From NCBI GenBank assembly GCA_016178535.1, contig JACOTD010000012.1, positions 1-40,845 of the forward strand: a stretch of 40,845 bases of DNA, read 5' to 3'. This DNA is from Candidatus Peregrinibacteria bacterium (lineage in GTDB: Bacteria > Patescibacteriota > Gracilibacteria > Peribacterales > Peribacteraceae). The notes under the pieces were generated by a model. The model was given only the letters and a program-made list of their open reading frames with translations, had not been told where the DNA came from and ran no database searches. Made by a program: the position numbers and the translations under genes. This document shows positions 17,126-25,668 of this stretch, in pieces. The stretch's first letter is position 1; each line of letters starts with the position of its first letter.

Positions 17126-20100
17126 TCACGACGCCCTCTCCGCGCGGAAGTTGATGAGTTCCGCCGCAACGGAGGAGATCACGATGAGGATGGCGCTGAG
17201 GAGGAGAACGACCGTGGGGCGCACGGAACGGAGGAGGAACGTCTCCATGCTGAAGGTCACGATGACCGAGAGATTGAACAGCATGAAGGCCAGGTAGCCA
17301 TCGATGCGCTTGAATGCCTCGTAGTTGAGCAATTGGCCGGTACCGACGAAGAGCCCGATGCCGAGCCCCAGGAAGAAGGTCTTGAGCGTGAGTCCAGCGA
17401 GGATCGGTTGGTGAGCGAGGAGCAGGAGCAGGATGGCGGGAGAGACGAAGGCCAGCAGGAAGAGGAAGACGTGCTCATTGAGGAGGAGGCCGTCCGTCTT
17501 GGCGAATTTCTTGATGTACTGGATCTGACCGACCGTCAGAAACACATCGAAGAAGGTCGAAATCATCGCGAGGATATCCCCGAGCGCGGTGGCGGATGAA
17601 TGCTGCACATCGTTGAAGAAGATGAGGGAACTCGCGAAGGCCGAGATCACAGCCAGCAGAAAAATCCAGGACATGGTCTTGGGCTGCCGGAGGTAGGGGA
17701 TGTCCTTCCGCCAGAAGATAGAGGCGATGAGGAGCCCCATGACGGGCGAGAAATTGTTGAAGAGGAGAAGATTCGTCCCGCTCGTGTAGATGAGGCTTGC
17801 GTTCTTGAAATACATGTAGCCGGCCTGCCCAAGGACGAGGAGAACGAACGAGCGATCGTAGGGAAGGCGCAGACGCGGGCGTTTGCATTGGACGATGGAA
17901 CGGAGAAGCAGGATGCAACTGGTGGGGACCAGCACGCCAATGCTGAGGAGAAACGTCCGCAGGAAGGGCGAGAGAACATTGACCGGCGTATACCGTATGT
18001 AGATCGGTTCGATGCCCCAGATGAGGACGGCGAGCACGCGGATGACGTAGCCGACGGTCTTGCGATGGAGAACAGCTGTCCTTTGCTGCTGCGAAATTTC
18101 CCGAGGAATTTCCTGATTGATTTCCGTGAAGAGCGCCTGGCTCTGGATGAACCGATACTCCGTGTAGAGCAGAGAGAGAATGAAGACGCCCACGAGCGGC
18201 AGCAAGCTCGTCTGAACGCGGGCGTAGATGCCGTGGGAAATGAGGAGGATCAATCCGAGGATGTTGAGGAGGAATCCGAGGCCGAGGAACCACTGATCCT
18301 GTCGCATGCGGACGATGTAGTGTCGCAGGAGCTTCAGGAGATAGTAGTTGGCGCCAACAATGGGAAGGAGCGGCAACACCTGCACGAGCGTCAAGGGGAG
18401 CACCGAGAACGCCCCGAAGAGACGCTCGTAGTAGGGCAAGAGCAACACGTCGATGACGATGATGGCGAACGCCAGCGTGAACGACCCGAAGAGGAACAGG
18501 CGCTGGAAGGGCGAGAGCAACACATCGACGTGCGAGATCCACTCCTGGCGCTCGAGGACGGTGAGGAACTCCGCAAAGTGGGTGCGATCCGGCGCGCGAC
18601 CGCGGAGGAAGAGATCGAAGGTTCCCGGCGTCTGCGACACTACATCGACCTGGCGGATATCGATGCCTTCGATGCGCGCAATGCTCGTGAGGAGATGCAG
18701 GACATCCTGCTGGCTCGATTGCGTCCCGCGCACGTGCAGCCGGAACGATTGCGGCAGGTGGGATACTGGAGCCGCACGGAACGAAAATGTCCGATGCTCC
18801 GGGAAGAGGTGGAAGACGATGTCGCGAGCCTCGAGAACGCCCTCACCCACCATGGCCACCACTTCCTCGAAGCTCTGGCGGCGGAAGTGCGCGGCAACGT
18901 CATGCTGTTGGCCTTTCGTGAGCTCGCCGATGAGACCCCTCTTGAAGCGGTCGAATTCCTTCTGCAGCAACTGACTCCCGACGCGGATCTTCTCCTCGCG
19001 ACTGCGCTGTTTGAGCGCTTCGGTGATGAGGTTTCTGGCGAAGCTGCTCACGACATCCTGGAGCCGCTCGAAGGAGACGGTGCCATGCTTGTCCAACGTG
19101 ACACGCAGCACGTCATCATCGGAGAGAATGGAGGAGAAGCGCGCGGGGGCGCCGTTTCTGTCGATTGCGGCGATGCGATGAGCGTCCTTGCCCAGCTGCG
19201 CGTACGCGGCGTCGAGCGCAGTGCTGCCGAGGGCCAGCGCGAGGGAGTTTCCGTCGACCGTCACGTTGACGGTCTCGTGGAGGAGATCGGATTGGAGCGC
19301 GGTCCAGAATGCCTCGCTGCTCTCGCGGGTGGATTGGTCGAGCACCTGGGAACGGCGGATCCAAGAATCGCCGGGACCCCCCATCGTCCCGCCGAAGACC
19401 GATCGCACGATGCCGAGGCGTTGCTGCACATCCATCTCCCAGGTGCGGATGCGGACTTCGAGCAGGGAATTCTCGGGGCCGATGACGGTCGTGGAGATGC
19501 CCTGGCTGCCGCTCTCGGTAGGGGCGGCAATGAAGTCGCGGAAGCGGGAGCCGACAGGACGGTAGAGGGCGTGGAGAATCCGCAGGATCGCGTAGCATGC
19601 ATCTTCATCGCGGACGAGCAGGACGAGCGTGAAGGTCTGTTCGTCGGAGAGCTTGCCTTCGGTTTGGAGCTGGAGCAGGTGCTGCATGGATCGCGCATCG
19701 CTGCGGACGAGCTGAAGCTCCCCGCGCGCTGCCTGCTGCACGCTCTCTTCGACGGCGGTGGCGATTGCCAGGATCTTCGGGGAGGAGCGGCTGCGCATCT
19801 GCACGAACTCCTCCGCCTGCGCGGGGGAGAGGATGGGAACGCAGACTTCCCCGAATTCCCGCTCCAGATCGTGCATGCTCAGGTGACGCGCGATGATGCC
19901 GTAGATCTCGAGCGTCTCGCTGGCCAGGCGTTCTTGGCGCTCCTTCGGCAAGACTCCGACCGTGCGGATGTTGTGCAGGCGGTCGGCGAGTTTGATGAGC
20001 ATCGCACGGATGTCGCGGCGCATGACGTCGAGGAGCTTGCGGAGTGTTTCGATTTTGCGATCGAATGCGGCGCTCACCATGTCCGCCTGCGTAAACTTCG

Positions 20101-20401
20101 TGACTCCTTCGACGAGGGACGCGACAACCGGGCCGAAGGTCTGCTCCAGCTCCGCACGCGTCACGGAGGAATCCTCCAGGACATCGTGGAGGAGGGCGGC
20201 CTGGATGGTTTCGCTGTCGGCATCCCATTCGCACAGGATCAGCGCGACGGCGATGGGGTGCTCTGCGTACGGCGTTCCATCCTCGCGCGTCTGGTTCGCA
20301 TGAATCCTCTTCGCGAAGGCAAGCGCCTCCCCGATGCGCCCTCGCTCGGCGTCGGCGAAGGATCGAATGGCGCGTTGGAAGCTCTGCTCAATGTCCTCCA
20401 C
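17126..20401 (-). CDS. RelA/SpoT-like HD hydrolase + degenerate synthetase + TGS-like region fused to polytopic EamA-like permease
   Basis: HPIAVALILCEWDADSETIQAALLHDVLEDS, IKLADRLHNIRTVG; GSRFRDFIAAPTESGSQGISTTVIGPENSLLEVRIRTWEMD; C-terminal LAVLIWGIEPIYIRYTPVNVLSPFLRTFLLSIGVL... multi-TM. GTG start. Confidence 0.8.
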   Translation of the reverse strand: MEDIEQSFQRAIRSFADAERGRIGEALAFAKRIHANQTREDGTPYAEHPIAVALILCEWDADSETIQAALLHDVLEDSSVTRAELEQTFGPVVASLVEGVTKFTQADMVSAAFDRKIETLRKLLDVMRRDIRAMLIKLADRLHNIRTVGVLPKERQERLASETLEIYGIIARHLSMHDLEREFGEVCVPILSPAQAEEFVQMRSRSSPKILAIATAVEESVQQAARGELQLVRSDARSMQHLLQLQTEGKLSDEQTFTLVLLVRDEDACYAILRILHALYRPVGSRFRDFIAAPTESGSQGISTTVIGPENSLLEVRIRTWEMDVQQRLGIVRSVFGGTMGGPGDSWIRRSQVLDQSTRESSEAFWTALQSDLLHETVNVTVDGNSLALALGSTALDAAYAQLGKDAHRIAAIDRNGAPARFSSILSDDDVLRVTLDKHGTVSFERLQDVVSSFARNLITEALKQRSREEKIRVGSQLLQKEFDRFKRGLIGELTKGQQHDVAAHFRRQSFEEVVAMVGEGVLEARDIVFHLFPEHRTFSFRAAPVSHLPQSFRLHVRGTQSSQQDVLHLLTSIARIEGIDIRQVDVVSQTPGTFDLFLRGRAPDRTHFAEFLTVLERQEWISHVDVLLSPFQRLFLFGSFTLAFAIIVIDVLLLPYYERLFGAFSVLPLTLVQVLPLLPIVGANYYLLKLLRHYIVRMRQDQWFLGLGFLLNILGLILLISHGIYARVQTSLLPLVGVFILSLLYTEYRFIQSQALFTEINQEIPREISQQQRTAVLHRKTVGYVIRVLAVLIWGIEPIYIRYTPVNVLSPFLRTFLLSIGVLVPTSCILLLRSIVQCKRPRLRLPYDRSFVLLVLGQAGYMYFKNASLIYTSGTNLLLFNNFSPVMGLLIASIFWRKDIPYLRQPKTMSWIFLLAVISAFASSLIFFNDVQHSSATALGDILAMISTFFDVFLTVGQIQYIKKFAKTDGLLLNEHVFLFLLAFVSPAILLLLLAHQPILAGLTLKTFFLGLGIGLFVGTGQLLNYEAFKRIDGYLAFMLFNLSVIVTFSMETFLLRSVRPTVVLLLSAILIVISSVAAELINFRAERAS

Positions 20402-20743: not shown

Positions 20744-23700
20744 ATGTTCGACCCCGTCGATCCACGGCAGAATTTCCCCTCGCTCGAGCGTGGCATTCTG
20801 AAGGAGTGGCGTGAGGAAAACACGTTCAAGCGATCGATTCATCAGAGGAGCCGCCAGGAGGGAGACCCGCTCGACGGGAAAAAAGGGGCGAGGGAAGACT
20901 GCTTCAGCTTCTACGACGGGCCGCCGTTTGCGACCGGGCTCCCCCACTACGGCCACCTCCTCGCGGGGACGATCAAGGACGTCATCCCCCGGTACCAGAC
21001 CATGCGCGGCAAACGCGTGGACCGGCGCTTCGGGTGGGACTGCCACGGGCTCCCCATCGAGAACATCATCGAGAAGGAGCACGGCATCAAGAGCAAGAAG
21101 GAGATCGAGGCCATGGGCGTGAAAGCGTTCAATGACTTGTGCCGCAGCGCCGTCCAGCGGCACACGAAGGAATGGAGAGTCGTCGTGGAACGCATGGGAA
21201 GGTGGGTCGACATGGATCACGACTACCGGACCATGGACCCCGAATACATGGAGAGCATCTGGTGGGTGTTCGCCTCGCTCGCGGAGAAGGAGCTGATCTA
21301 CGAGGGCCGCAAGCCGATGCATATCTGTCCGCGATGCCAGACATCGCTCTCCAATTTCGAAGTGACGCAGGGATACAGAGAGATCACGGACTATTCCGTC
21401 ACGGCGAAGTTTGAACTCATCGATGAGCCGGGAACATTCGTCCTCGCGTGGACGACGACTCCGTGGACGCTACCTGGGAATTTGTTTCTTGCTTTGAATC
21501 CTAATATCCAATACGTGAAATTTAAATACAAAAATGAATTCTGCATTGTTGCAGAAGCTATATGGAATAACCGTGAAAATCCAAAAAATGTATTGCACTC
21601 ACTCATGTACGCCAAAGCGCATGAACCAGGTATGCCAATTTTTGATACCGAAAAAATCGTTGGTAATCCATTTTCAGGGAAAGAACTTCTCGAAAAAAAG
21701 TATGGTCCTCTCTTCCCCTACTTCGCCGAAGAATACCAGAGAAGCGCTTTCCGGATCGTGCCAGGGGAATTCGTCACGATTGACGAGGGAACGGGCGTTG
21801 TGCACATCGCACCGGGATTCGGCGAGGACGACTGCAACATCGGGAAGCGAGAGCGGGTTCCCCTCCTCCAGCACGTTCACATGGACGGAACGTTCACGAG
21901 CGACGTGAGAGAGTTCTCCGGCATGCACGTGAAGCCGAAGGAAGATCCCAGCAAGACCGATCACAAAATCGCCGCATGGCTCGATGCGCACGGAAAGCTG
22001 TTCGCTGCGGAAAACTACTCTCACACGTACCCCCATTGCTGGCGATGCGATACTCCCCTCCTCAACTATGCGACCTCCTCCTGGTTCGTTTCGGTGGAGA
22101 AAATCAAGGAGAACATGCTCCAGGCGAACGCGGAGACGGAGTGGGTGCCCTCGCACATCCGCGATGGAAGGTTCGGGAAGTGGCTCGAGAATGCGCGCGA
22201 CTGGGCGATCTCCCGCTCGCGGTACTGGGGCACGCCGCTGCCGATCTGGCGATGCAGCGAGACGGGAGAGACGGAGGTGATCGGGAGCAGGGACGATCTG
22301 ATGAAGCGCAAACCGATCCGGTTCACGAAAGTAACGGTGCTGCGCCACGGTGAGAGCGGGGGGAACGTGGCGCCGCTCTACCAGGGAAAACCACCCGGAA
22401 CGGATCTGACGGCGAAGGGGAAGAACCAAGTGCGCGCGACGGCGGATCGCCTTTCCGACGAGACGATCGCGCGGATCTACTGCTCCCCGCTCGCGCGGAC
22501 GACGCAGACGGCGGCGATCATCGCGGAGGAGACGGACGCGGAGGCAGTGACTGACGAGCGCCTCCGCGAGGTGGAATTCGGCGAGTACGAGGGCACATCG
22601 ATCGATTTTTCCGACCTCACGCTCGTGAGAGCCAGGAGAGCCCACAAGCTCGAGACGGGGAAGATGGAGAGCATCTACCACTTCCCGGGCATGGAGACCT
22701 GGAAGCACGTGCACGCGCGCATGAGCGATTTCTTGACCGACGTCCTGCCCAGGCACCGCGGCGAGCACATCGTGATCGTCACGCACGCCGATCCCCTCCA
22801 GAACATCCGCACCTTCTTCACGGGCGAAGACCCGGTGAAGATCTCGCACCAGCCTTACCCGGGCTTCGCCGAGCCGTTCACCTTCTACTGGGATCACGAC
22901 ACGGGGAAGGAACTCGATCTCCACAGGGAGACCGTCGATACGATTCGGTGGCCAGGATCTCCGAACGAGAAGAGCGTTGAGGTGACCATCGTGCGGCACG
23001 GGGAGACGGACTGGAACAAGGAGCGCAAAGTGCAAGGCGGCGATGTCGACGAGCCGCTGAATGGCGAAGGGGGAAGCCAGGCGCATGCGCTCGCGAAGAA
23101 GCTCGCGAAGAAAACATTCGACGTGATCCTCTCTTCCGATCTGAAACGGACCGCCGGGACAGCCGCCATCCTCTCAAAGGAGCTCGGCGTTCCGCTCGCG
23201 GGTGAATGGAGAGAGCTCCGCGAACGGTTCACGGGTGAATGGAGCGGGACGTCCATCGATGACGTGATGAAGAAGCACCCGCGGATACACGAGAAACAGA
23301 GTCCGGTTTCCCAGCACGCAACACCGCCGGGCGGCGAGAGCCTCTCAGAATTTCTCCAGCGCATGGAGCGCGCCTACGACCGTCTCCTCGAAGAATTTTC
23401 CGGGAAGAAGATCCTCATCGTCACGCACAAGGGGGTCATTCAGGGGCTCGCAGCGCTCGCGGAGAATCTGACGCACAAGCAGGCGATTGATCATGCGAAG
23501 GAGAATGCCGAACTGCAGACGCTCACCCTCCATCCCCTCCTCCGGCGCATCCCCGAGGTGCTCGATTGCTGGTTCGAGAGCGGCTCGATGCCGTATGCGC
23601 AGGGGCACTTTCCCTTCGCACTTCGCACTTCGTACTTCGCAATTGATCAGGAGCAAAAGGGCGAATTGCGAATTGCGAGTGGCGAATTGCCCCCCGGCTT

Positions 23701-25186
23701 TCCCGCCGACTTCATCGCCGAGGGGATCGACCAAACGCGCGGGTGGTTCTATACGTTGACGGTGCTCAGCGCGGCGCTCTTCAACCTTCCGGCGTTTCGC
23801 CACTGCATCGTGAACGGGACGGTGCTCGCGGAGGACGGCAGGAAGATGAGCAAGCGGCTGAAGAATTACCCCGAGCCGCTCGAGGTCGTGGAGAAGCACG
23901 GGGCCGATGCCGTGCGCTTCGCGCTCATGAGTTCGCCTGCCGTGCGTGGCGAAGACCTGCGCTTCTCGGAGAAACTCGTGCTCGAGACGGTCAGGAGCGT
24001 CCTGCTGCCCCTCTGGAACACGTATTCATTTTTCGTGACGTACGCGAACGCGGCCACGTGGGAAGCGAGTGAAACTCGAAGACATTCGACGCATCCGCTC
24101 GATATTTGGATCCGCGCCGAGGTGCAGGATCTCGTGAATAGGATGACGGAGCAACTCGACGGCTACGATCTCTCCGCAACCTGTGCGGAGCTGCACGACA
24201 CGATCGACGCGCTCACCAATTGGTACATCCGTCTCTCGCGCCGGCGATTCGCCGGGAAGAGCGGCATTCATACGGAGACGGCATTCGATGACCATGGAGA
24301 GGATCGCCATGCGGCTCTCCACACGCTCTTCGATGTTCTCCTGACCCTCTGCCAGCTCCTGTCACCCTTCTGCCCGTTCATCACCGAGGCGATCTACTTG
24401 AACCTCGTTCCCGAGGAGCACGGATCCATCCACCTGACCGACTGGCCGGCCCCTCGGGCACTGACGAAGGAGGAAGAGATTCTCCTCTCGCGCACGCGGC
24501 TCCTGCGGATGATCGTGACGCTCGGGCTCTCGGTGCGCGCCGAGCGGAAGGTGAAGCTGCGTCAGCCGCTCAGCAAGGCGACGGCGGCGATTCCGCAATC
24601 TCTTCGGGAAGGCGGCGATCTCACTCTCGATGAACTGCGGCTCCTGCAGGAAGAATTGAACGTGAAGGCCATCGAAGTGGTGGACGATCCGGGGTCTCTC
24701 GCGCAGGCGATCGCACAGGTGGACGCGCGGAAGGTCGGGCCGCGATTGGGGGGTCGCGTGCAAGAGATCATCATCGCCGGGAAGAGCGGCGACTTCACCG
24801 TGAAGGAGAACGGCGAGGTGTTGATTCTCGAAGAAGTTCTCTCCCCCGAAGAAGTCACGATCGTCTACCGCGGACGCGAAGGGGAGAATATCGCGGCGGA
24901 CCGGGGGATCGTCGTCAGCATGGAGACGGCCGTGACGCCGGCATTGAAGAAGGAAGGGATGCTCCGAGACCTTCTCCGCGCCATCCAGAAGCTGCGGAAG
25001 GAGGAAGGCTTCGCGGTCACCGATCGCGTGACGCTTTCAATCGAGGGAGCGGATGATCTGATTCAGCACAACAAAGAAGTCATTGAACGCGAGACGAACG
25101 TCGTCGTCGACGGGAACAAGGACGGAGAGCACCATGTGATCCAACTCGACGATGACCATTCCGTGACGATCACCATAAAGAAGTGA
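20744..25186 (+). CDS. ileS: Isoleucyl-tRNA synthetase (type-2-like) with two embedded histidine phosphatase domains
   Basis: FYDGPPFATGLPHYGHLLAGTIKD, WTTTPWTLPGN, DCWFESGSMPYAQ, FIAEGIDQTRGWFYTL, DGRKMSKRLKNYPEP; ~1480 aa. RHG domains at ~22328-22970 and ~22972-23530. Confidence 0.95.
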   Translation: MFDPVDPRQNFPSLERGILKEWREENTFKRSIHQRSRQEGDPLDGKKGAREDCFSFYDGPPFATGLPHYGHLLAGTIKDVIPRYQTMRGKRVDRRFGWDCHGLPIENIIEKEHGIKSKKEIEAMGVKAFNDLCRSAVQRHTKEWRVVVERMGRWVDMDHDYRTMDPEYMESIWWVFASLAEKELIYEGRKPMHICPRCQTSLSNFEVTQGYREITDYSVTAKFELIDEPGTFVLAWTTTPWTLPGNLFLALNPNIQYVKFKYKNEFCIVAEAIWNNRENPKNVLHSLMYAKAHEPGMPIFDTEKIVGNPFSGKELLEKKYGPLFPYFAEEYQRSAFRIVPGEFVTIDEGTGVVHIAPGFGEDDCNIGKRERVPLLQHVHMDGTFTSDVREFSGMHVKPKEDPSKTDHKIAAWLDAHGKLFAAENYSHTYPHCWRCDTPLLNYATSSWFVSVEKIKENMLQANAETEWVPSHIRDGRFGKWLENARDWAISRSRYWGTPLPIWRCSETGETEVIGSRDDLMKRKPIRFTKVTVLRHGESGGNVAPLYQGKPPGTDLTAKGKNQVRATADRLSDETIARIYCSPLARTTQTAAIIAEETDAEAVTDERLREVEFGEYEGTSIDFSDLTLVRARRAHKLETGKMESIYHFPGMETWKHVHARMSDFLTDVLPRHRGEHIVIVTHADPLQNIRTFFTGEDPVKISHQPYPGFAEPFTFYWDHDTGKELDLHRETVDTIRWPGSPNEKSVEVTIVRHGETDWNKERKVQGGDVDEPLNGEGGSQAHALAKKLAKKTFDVILSSDLKRTAGTAAILSKELGVPLAGEWRELRERFTGEWSGTSIDDVMKKHPRIHEKQSPVSQHATPPGGESLSEFLQRMERAYDRLLEEFSGKKILIVTHKGVIQGLAALAENLTHKQAIDHAKENAELQTLTLHPLLRRIPEVLDCWFESGSMPYAQGHFPFALRTSYFAIDQEQKGELRIASGELPPGFPADFIAEGIDQTRGWFYTLTVLSAALFNLPAFRHCIVNGTVLAEDGRKMSKRLKNYPEPLEVVEKHGADAVRFALMSSPAVRGEDLRFSEKLVLETVRSVLLPLWNTYSFFVTYANAATWEASETRRHSTHPLDIWIRAEVQDLVNRMTEQLDGYDLSATCAELHDTIDALTNWYIRLSRRRFAGKSGIHTETAFDDHGEDRHAALHTLFDVLLTLCQLLSPFCPFITEAIYLNLVPEEHGSIHLTDWPAPRALTKEEEILLSRTRLLRMIVTLGLSVRAERKVKLRQPLSKATAAIPQSLREGGDLTLDELRLLQEELNVKAIEVVDDPGSLAQAIAQVDARKVGPRLGGRVQEIIIAGKSGDFTVKENGEVLILEEVLSPEEVTIVYRGREGENIAADRGIVVSMETAVTPALKKEGMLRDLLRAIQKLRKEEGFAVTDRVTLSIEGADDLIQHNKEVIERETNVVVDGNKDGEHHVIQLDDDHSVTITIKK
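23613..23693. repeat. Heptamer-type inverted repeat inside ileS
   Basis: cccttcgcacttcgcacttcgtacttcgcaatt ... gggcgaattgcgaattgcgagtggcgaattgcc. Confidence 0.8.
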
Positions 25187-25275
25187 TTCAGCGGCGAAGG
25201 AGAAGAGAAACTTCCATCACGGAACCGCTGCCTGCCCTGAGTGTGATCGAAGCGAACCGCTGCTACACTTCTCCC

Positions 25276-25668
25276 ATGTCCGCCCCTGCCCGCATCATCG
25301 TCCGGTTCGTCCTCAATGTCCTCCTCGTCTGGGGACTCGCAACGTATCTTTCCGACTACGTTTCCGTGGAAGGAGGCTGGACGGCCTTCGTCGTGATCGG
25401 GGCATTGCTCACGCTGATGAATGCGATCGTCCGGCCGCTCCTCACCCTCATCACGCTGCCGTTGCGATTGCTCGCGACGATTCTGACGGTCGTGATTGTC
25501 AACGGCATCTTCCTCTGGCTCACGATCCTGATCGTCGGTGCGATGGATCCGACCGTCGTCTCGCTCCAGATCAACGGCGGCATCGCCGGATGGATCTTCC
25601 TCTCGCTCCTGGTGGGTCTCGCGAACTGGGTGATGAAGGAAGTGCTGCACTACGAAGCGAGGACATAG
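25276..25668 (+). CDS. Small membrane protein, phage holin family 4-like
   Basis: VRFVLNVLLVWGLATYL...LLTLMNAIVRPLLTLITLPLRLLATILTVVIVNGIFLWLT. Confidence 0.8.
   Translation: MSAPARIIVRFVLNVLLVWGLATYLSDYVSVEGGWTAFVVIGALLTLMNAIVRPLLTLITLPLRLLATILTVVIVNGIFLWLTILIVGAMDPTVVSLQINGGIAGWIFLSLLVGLANWVMKEVLHYEART

Follow-up and report, generated by a model that had tools for sequence, protein, structure and literature searches.

The window, a 40,845-nucleotide stretch of DNA from a Candidatus Peregrinibacteria bacterium, encodes an isoleucyl-tRNA synthetase (IleRS) of 1480 amino acids that holds two complete histidine phosphatase (RHG) domains, RHG1 and RHG2, within its CP2/Zn-knuckle loop. Our preferred reading, to which we assign a probability of about 60%, is that this single polypeptide combines a type-2 IleRS with two phosphomonoesterases, and that the recurrence of such domains in isoleucyl- and valyl-tRNA synthetases (ValRS) would reflect a benefit of having a phosphatase on the synthetase. 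The features on which the analysis rests are collected in Table 1.

Table 1 Features of the ileS region (positions in the window)
Feature	Position	Strand	Evidence or remark
RelA/SpoT-like protein with hydrophobic C-terminal half, divergent from ileS	17126..20401	-	HD_4 PF13328 E 4.6e-39; weak RelA_SpoT PF04607 E 5.5e-11
ileS, predicted type-2 isoleucyl-tRNA synthetase with two nested RHG domains, 1480 aa	20744..25186	+	TIGR00392, PF00133, PF08264, PF19302
HIGH motif (HYGH), aminoacylation site	20945..20956	+	sequence
CP1 region (editing domain), residues ~200-440, approximate boundaries	21341..22063	+	PF00133 match position and model
RYWGTPLPIW, catalytic-core strand directly 5' of the inserts	22220..22249	+	sequence
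RHG1 (site A), histidine phosphatase domain	22325..22909	+	PF00300 E 2.8e-37
RHG1 catalytic residues	R534-H535 (22343-22348), R585 (22496), E609 (22568), H681 (22784)	+	
IleRS segment separating RHG1 and RHG2, ELDLHRETVDTIRWPGSPNEK, 21 residues	22910..22972	+	homologous to VDLHRPYIDSIKLP
RHG2 (site B), histidine phosphatase domain	22973..23536	+	PF00300 E 2.3e-47
RHG2 catalytic residues	R751-H752 (22994-22999), R802 (23147), E827 (23222), H895 (23426)	+	
LRRIPEVLDCWFESG, return to the catalytic core	23540..23584	+	sequence
KMSKR motif	23843..23857	+	sequence
Anticodon-binding domain (Anticodon_1)	24101..24577	+	PF08264 E 2.2e-25
C-terminal DUF5915 region	24644..25180	+	PF19302 E 1.3e-23
ileS stop codon	25184-25186	+	
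4-TMS holin-family membrane protein, overlaps the ileS stop	25183..25668	+	PF04020 E 2e-11

The synthetase and its two inserts

The reading frame of ileS is open on the forward strand from position 17600; the most likely start codon is the ATG at 20744, because the frame 5' of it runs antisense to the RelA/SpoT-like gene. The whole protein scores 806.9 bits against the TIGR00392 (ileS) model, passing the curated cut-off of 621.4; PF00133, PF08264 and PF19302 identify the class I core, the anticodon-binding domain and the C-terminal domain, respectively. The motifs HYGH and KMSKR are intact, as the earlier note had stated, and so are RYWGTPLP and DCWFESGS; R493 and W495 of the RYWGTPLPIW strand are invariant columns in an alignment of 50 IleRSs. 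The product is classed as a type-2 (eukaryote-like) IleRS for which isoleucylation is predicted. It has in common with other type-2 enzymes (yeast IleRS 7d5c/8wnd, Priestia IleRS2 8c8v and MupA/MupB) the scaffold, the HIGH/KMSK motifs and CP1, with Z 36-39 over ~726 residues. Whereas the solved IleRSs among the structure matches are without an RHG in CP2, the window enzyme has RHGs and is without the Zn-knuckle Cys pairs.

Both phosphatase domains are complete and in frame at the location given in the earlier note: each is matched by PF00300, with isolated-domain scores of 128.7 (RHG1) and 161.6 bits (RHG2) that exceed the gathering cut-off of 21.7 bits, and AlphaFold folds both confidently. 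The catalytic Arg-His, second Arg, Glu and second His are all present in the two domains, which are 32% identical to each other; the first and last of these had already been picked out in that note. Its description of two tandem domains adding ~400 residues needs amending, in that there is indeed a pair, but not a strict tandem: the two inserts (~194 and ~187 residues, respectively) each have their own insertion point and are separated by 21 native IleRS residues. This segment, ELDLHRETVDTIRWPGSPNEK, resembles the matching segment in relatives that have no RHG, and its H727 and D732 are invariant in the 50 IleRSs. In RHG-less IleRSs of the same class the loop reads ...SRNRFWGAPLPIWKCEKCGELKCVSSKDELEKLSGEKVNDLHKHFADEISWKCDCGATMKRIPEVLDCWFESGSMP, and CxxC-type pairs flank the DLH segment; comparison with these enzymes places RHG1 directly before the DLH segment and RHG2 directly after it, in the place of the second pair, in agreement with the Zn-knuckle position proposed earlier. 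Since IleRS residues stand between them, RHG1 and RHG2 are separate insertions, each with its own point in the same loop.

An AlphaFold model of IleRS residues 1-1185, computed with a 50-sequence alignment, reached a pLDDT of 88.8 and a pTM of 0.88. In the predicted structure both RHGs are accommodated and the IleRS core is unbroken; we judge the core to be undisturbed because the synthetase part of the model aligns with yeast IleRS 7d5c with a Z of 39.1 over 726 residues.

Conservation and selection in the Peribacteraceae

Among Peribacteraceae genomes with a contig covering the site, RHG1 is found at the same point in 35/35 and RHG2 in 28/34, and two of the RHG-bearing genomes are single-contig assemblies. 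This survey of IleRS-RHG fusions, a check suggested by the earlier note, was complemented by a scan of named genomes, where 60 loci were recovered, nearly all of them from Candidatus Peribacteria/Peregrinibacteria. A contig labelled Kiritimatiellales (L191) has a Peribacteria-type IleRS-RHG1, probably owing to a binning error.

The five catalytic residues of RHG1 (R534, H535, R585, E609 and H681) are identical in 26/26 family sequences; in RHG2, H752, R802, E827 and H895 are likewise kept in 26/26 and R751 in 25/26. Random loss of catalytic residues in relatives, which the earlier note had considered, is thus not what is seen. Close pairs analysed by the Nei-Gojobori method gave dN/dS values of 0.04-0.11 for RHG1, 0.08-0.28 for RHG2 and 0.06-0.18 for the remaining IleRS; RHG1 is under purifying selection as strict as that on the synthetase. 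The mean identity of RHG2 within the family is only 42%.

These data bear directly on the idea that the fusion is an assembly chimera or that the inserts are decaying. Split frames are seen only occasionally, in single MAG contigs (L188 and L210), whereas dozens of assemblies made independently, including two that consist of a single contig, share the same junctions, with low dN/dS and intact active sites; a chimera is ruled out by the identical junctions, and the probability of this explanation as a whole is negligible.

In a tree of the synthetase core computed with the RHG domains excised, RHG1 is constant across the family, while members lacking RHG2 are nested at ~3 places. An ancestral RHG2 followed by several losses fits this topology, although gains may have occurred instead; being absent in several nested lineages, RHG2 is dispensable. 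Within the family, the pair L202/L228 shows a dN of 0.51 for RHG2 against 0.09 for the host protein, which suggests that the domain was replaced there.

RHG domains in synthetases across the phylum

The two insertion points of the window enzyme belong to a larger set. Within this CPR phylum, RHG domains occur at four or more IleRS sites. Those defined are A, at RYWG+36; B, at DLH+21; C, which lies 76-80 residues past KMSKS; and D, ~27 past DCWFESG. Several IleRSs carry more than one copy (B+D+C in L055; A+C in L043, L054 and L090; three in L180), and ValRSs with one to three RHGs are present in several genomes, so that up to three RHGs can reside in one synthetase (L055, L062 and L180). The IleRS frame of L180 (2872-7887, +) encodes 1672 aa, with the third RHG adjoining RHG2. 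In a sample of 133 genomes, IleRS was split by an RHG in 21/131 and ValRS in ~3/124; among 107 genomes drawn evenly from the phylum, RHGs within frames longer than 700 aa lay without exception in an IleRS or a ValRS. No LeuRS with an RHG was seen in the phylum genome survey, and in many families of the phylum IleRS is without any RHG. In the TGA-recoded relatives L048 and L058 the RHG domains of IleRS appear fragmented, in a way that would fit an additional insert within them.

The active sites are largely preserved throughout. Among 161 RHG matches, mostly inside aminoacyl-tRNA synthetases, the catalytic residues are retained in 155 (R), 157 (H), 158 (R), 149 (E) and 154 (second H) cases, and those missing belong mainly to extra RHG copies of ValRS. 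Aligning 38 site-A domains from many families leaves 11 invariant columns, five of which correspond to the catalytic residues (R, H, R, E, H).

This distribution also bears on a structural explanation, according to which the RHG folds stand in for the missing Zn-knuckle and lend stability to the synthetase or to its contacts with tRNA, catalysis being incidental. Both inserts of the window enzyme do sit at the CxxC-pair positions of RHG-less relatives, the pairs being lost here, and RHG1 is never lost in the Peribacteraceae. However, the invariant residues of RHG1, and especially those of the otherwise divergent RHG2, are mostly catalytic, and RHGs are also found at sites C and D, away from the Zn-knuckle. 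We consider this explanation very improbable.

Phylogenetic trees place the site-A, site-B and ValRS domains in separate groups, with A-like and B-like domains both found at site C, at limited support. RHG1 and RHG2 fall into different groups, which speaks against a simple tandem duplication; a single clade for the two was, however, not rejected by the AU test (p 0.14), so that such a duplication may still have occurred, and a single origin of all embedded RHGs was only borderline rejected (p 0.048). The topologies suggest separate groups, the AU tests not being decisive.

Other nested domains and the possibility of cargo

RHG is one of several enzyme domains found inside IleRSs of the phylum, the others being GNAT (L061), NUDIX (L048 and L127), a serine hydrolase (L127) and an IS200-type transposase, Y1_Tnp (L045). 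In genome G042, UvrB (L083:2061-5435, +) bears an RHG and a serine-hydrolase domain within its helicase core. Two phylum genomes (L172 and L173) encode a D-2-hydroxyacid dehydrogenase, as identified from its sequence, joined end-to-end with a dPGM-like domain. The only comparable named NCBIfam class among the matches is the GNAT-bearing IleRS, NF040702 (ileS_w_GNAT), which like the window enzyme combines IleRS with an unrelated enzyme domain; its insert is GNAT rather than RHG, and the window protein scores far under its cut-off. Another parallel is provided by the RNase HI-CobC fusions (Rv2228c, MSMEG_4305 and SCO2299), in which an RHG phosphatase is likewise carried by a nucleic-acid enzyme (PMC7466739); there the domains are joined end-to-end on a different host enzyme, whereas the RHGs of the window are nested in IleRS.

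Such a variety of domains nested in other IleRSs and in UvrB argues for a reading in which the RHGs are ordinary metabolic phosphatases and IleRS and ValRS are permissive, essential carriers that keep their cargo expressed and prevent its loss. The RNase H-CobC case supplies a precedent, as its mycobacterial CobC domain serves B12 synthesis, drift being the explanation that the authors prefer (PMC7466739), and it cautions against taking a fusion as coupling. Set against this are the strong preference for IleRS and ValRS as hosts, LeuRS having yielded no case, the use of several insertion sites in the same two hosts, and the presence of up to three RHGs per synthetase, which is beyond a single metabolic need. 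We regard the carrier reading as a real possibility, if a doubtful one.

Phosphatase affinities and candidate metabolic roles

Modelled alone, RHG1 reached a pLDDT of 95.6. Its nearest structures are PspA (4ij6), PhoE and the ARAPDP phosphatase of Aquifex (9MMH), with Z of 23.9, 22.9 and 22.5, respectively, values too close together to single out a substrate. PspA/iPSP1 of Hydrogenobacter (4ij5/4ij6), PhoE (1h2e) and Aquifex HFP (9mmh) have the fold and all catalytic residues in common with RHG1 at 23-28% identity; they are stand-alone proteins of ~200 aa, whereas RHG1 forms part of a synthetase. For RHG2, the solved structures closest by sequence are CobC and PhoE (CobC 6nru, PDB E 7e-18).

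On its own, neither RHG1 nor RHG2 passes any equivalog cut-off in NCBIfam. RHG1 scores 88.1 bits against the PspA model NF045917 (cut-off 350), and RHG2 scores 128.7 bits against TIGR03162, the CobC alpha-ribazole phosphatase, its best named family (cut-off 162.9). The dPGM models give 101.1 for RHG1 (NF038349, cut-off 225) and 51.3 bits for RHG2 (TIGR01258, cut-off 81.7). A role as glycolytic mutase was rejected on account of these scores, far under the cut-offs, and of a separate dPGM-like gene, the sole other PF00300 match in the window's genome. This stand-alone protein (L065, G000:C27:9215-9799) has its second catalytic His changed to Ser (ASGNS instead of AHGNS), a change also present in G031 (L104).

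Two biosynthetic roles deserve comment. The phosphoserine phosphatase step of serine synthesis is disfavoured because no SerC-type aminotransferase is evident among the three Aminotran_5 matches in the window's genome, which weakens the carrier reading in this respect; the PGDH-like protein of the same genome scores below its cut-off. In favour of that reading, dephosphorylation of ARAPDP is a concrete candidate: an RHG enzyme (9MMH) performs this step of riboflavin synthesis in Aquifex (PMC12051542), and the riboflavin pathway of Ca. Peribacter is reported to be complete (PMC4736985). The structural proximity of RHG1 to PspA, PhoE and the ARAPDP phosphatase (Z 22.5-23.9), and the dPGM-like nature of the only other PF00300 match, also agree with a metabolic cargo. 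A search of the window's genome for PIN domains returned nothing relevant.

Neighbours of ileS and a possible role in quality control

The RelA/SpoT-like gene adjoins ileS in many Peribacteraceae and was seen in this position only within that family; a second, canonical-looking RelA_SpoT protein is encoded elsewhere in the window's genome (G000:C87). Among the ligands proposed in the earlier note (an adenylate by-product, a nucleotide or an alarmone), alarmones are the ones toward which there may be a single hint in this neighbour, which may equally reflect plain synteny; we do not take the adjacency to demonstrate an alarmone role, as it is limited to the family. The holin-family gene is also kept as a neighbour of ileS across the Peribacteraceae.

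This neighbourhood is part of the case for a quality-control function, in which the RHGs would act as phosphatases on tRNA 3' ends that are damaged or have been altered by toxins, or would degrade a phosphorylated synthetase inhibitor, as an extra layer of Ile/Val proofreading. The restriction of RHGs to two editing class I synthetases and the nesting of NUDIX and GNAT in the same enzyme elsewhere speak in its favour, and there are toxins known to pyrophosphorylate the CCA end of tRNA (PMC11559606). On the other hand, no known RHG enzyme acting on RNA ends was found, and the RelA/SpoT neighbour, confined as it is to the Peribacteraceae, may be a matter of synteny. Overall, we deem this function improbable.

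Discussion

The combination of IleRS and phosphatases on one chain, which we favour, is in keeping with the intact active sites, the purifying selection on the domains, the undisturbed core, the constant RHG1 with a looser RHG2, and the repeated insertion into IleRS and ValRS. Weighing against it are the other cargo domains in a few relatives, which fit a general tolerance, the dispensability of RHG2 and the families that have no RHG.

By analogy with the chemistry of the family, and given the intact residues, each RHG would be an independent phosphomonoesterase, and we infer that RHG1 and RHG2 are both active in the cell. In the mechanism that we envisage, the two domains, inserted separately in the CP2/Zn-knuckle loop, would lie between the halves of the synthetase Rossmann fold. 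The first His of each (H535 and H752) would be phosphorylated by a small phosphomonoester substrate, with the Arg residues and the second His holding the phosphate and the Glu serving as general acid/base; water would then release Pi from the phosphohistidine intermediate. The most likely target would be a nucleotide or phosphorylated small molecule made by the synthetase, encountered by it or acting as its inhibitor. A substrate met at the synthetase is suggested because RHG recurs in two related editing synthetases and not in LeuRS, and we give about even odds to some functional benefit of co-location. It is rather unlikely, and offered tentatively, that RHG represents a recurrent catalytic module of CPR Ile/Val synthetases, gained repeatedly in different loops, which removes tRNA-, adenylate- or inhibitor-derived phosphate and thereby protects or regulates charging; this would amount to a new form of synthetase-linked quality control.

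A search of the open-access literature recovered no description of RHG domains in aminoacyl-tRNA synthetases. An enzyme domain within a synthetase was already known; what is new is that active-looking phosphatases are nested in IleRS and ValRS, and at several sites. In two of the universal and well-studied synthetases, the split Rossmann core has thus repeatedly taken in complete, catalytically intact phosphatases. If the activities are coupled, an unrecognised phosphorylated substrate would be tied to Ile/Val charging; if the phosphatases are cargo, essential synthetases would be able to carry unrelated enzymes in reduced genomes. For the annotation of small genomes this calls for caution, as an enzyme that is apparently missing may hide in a synthetase.
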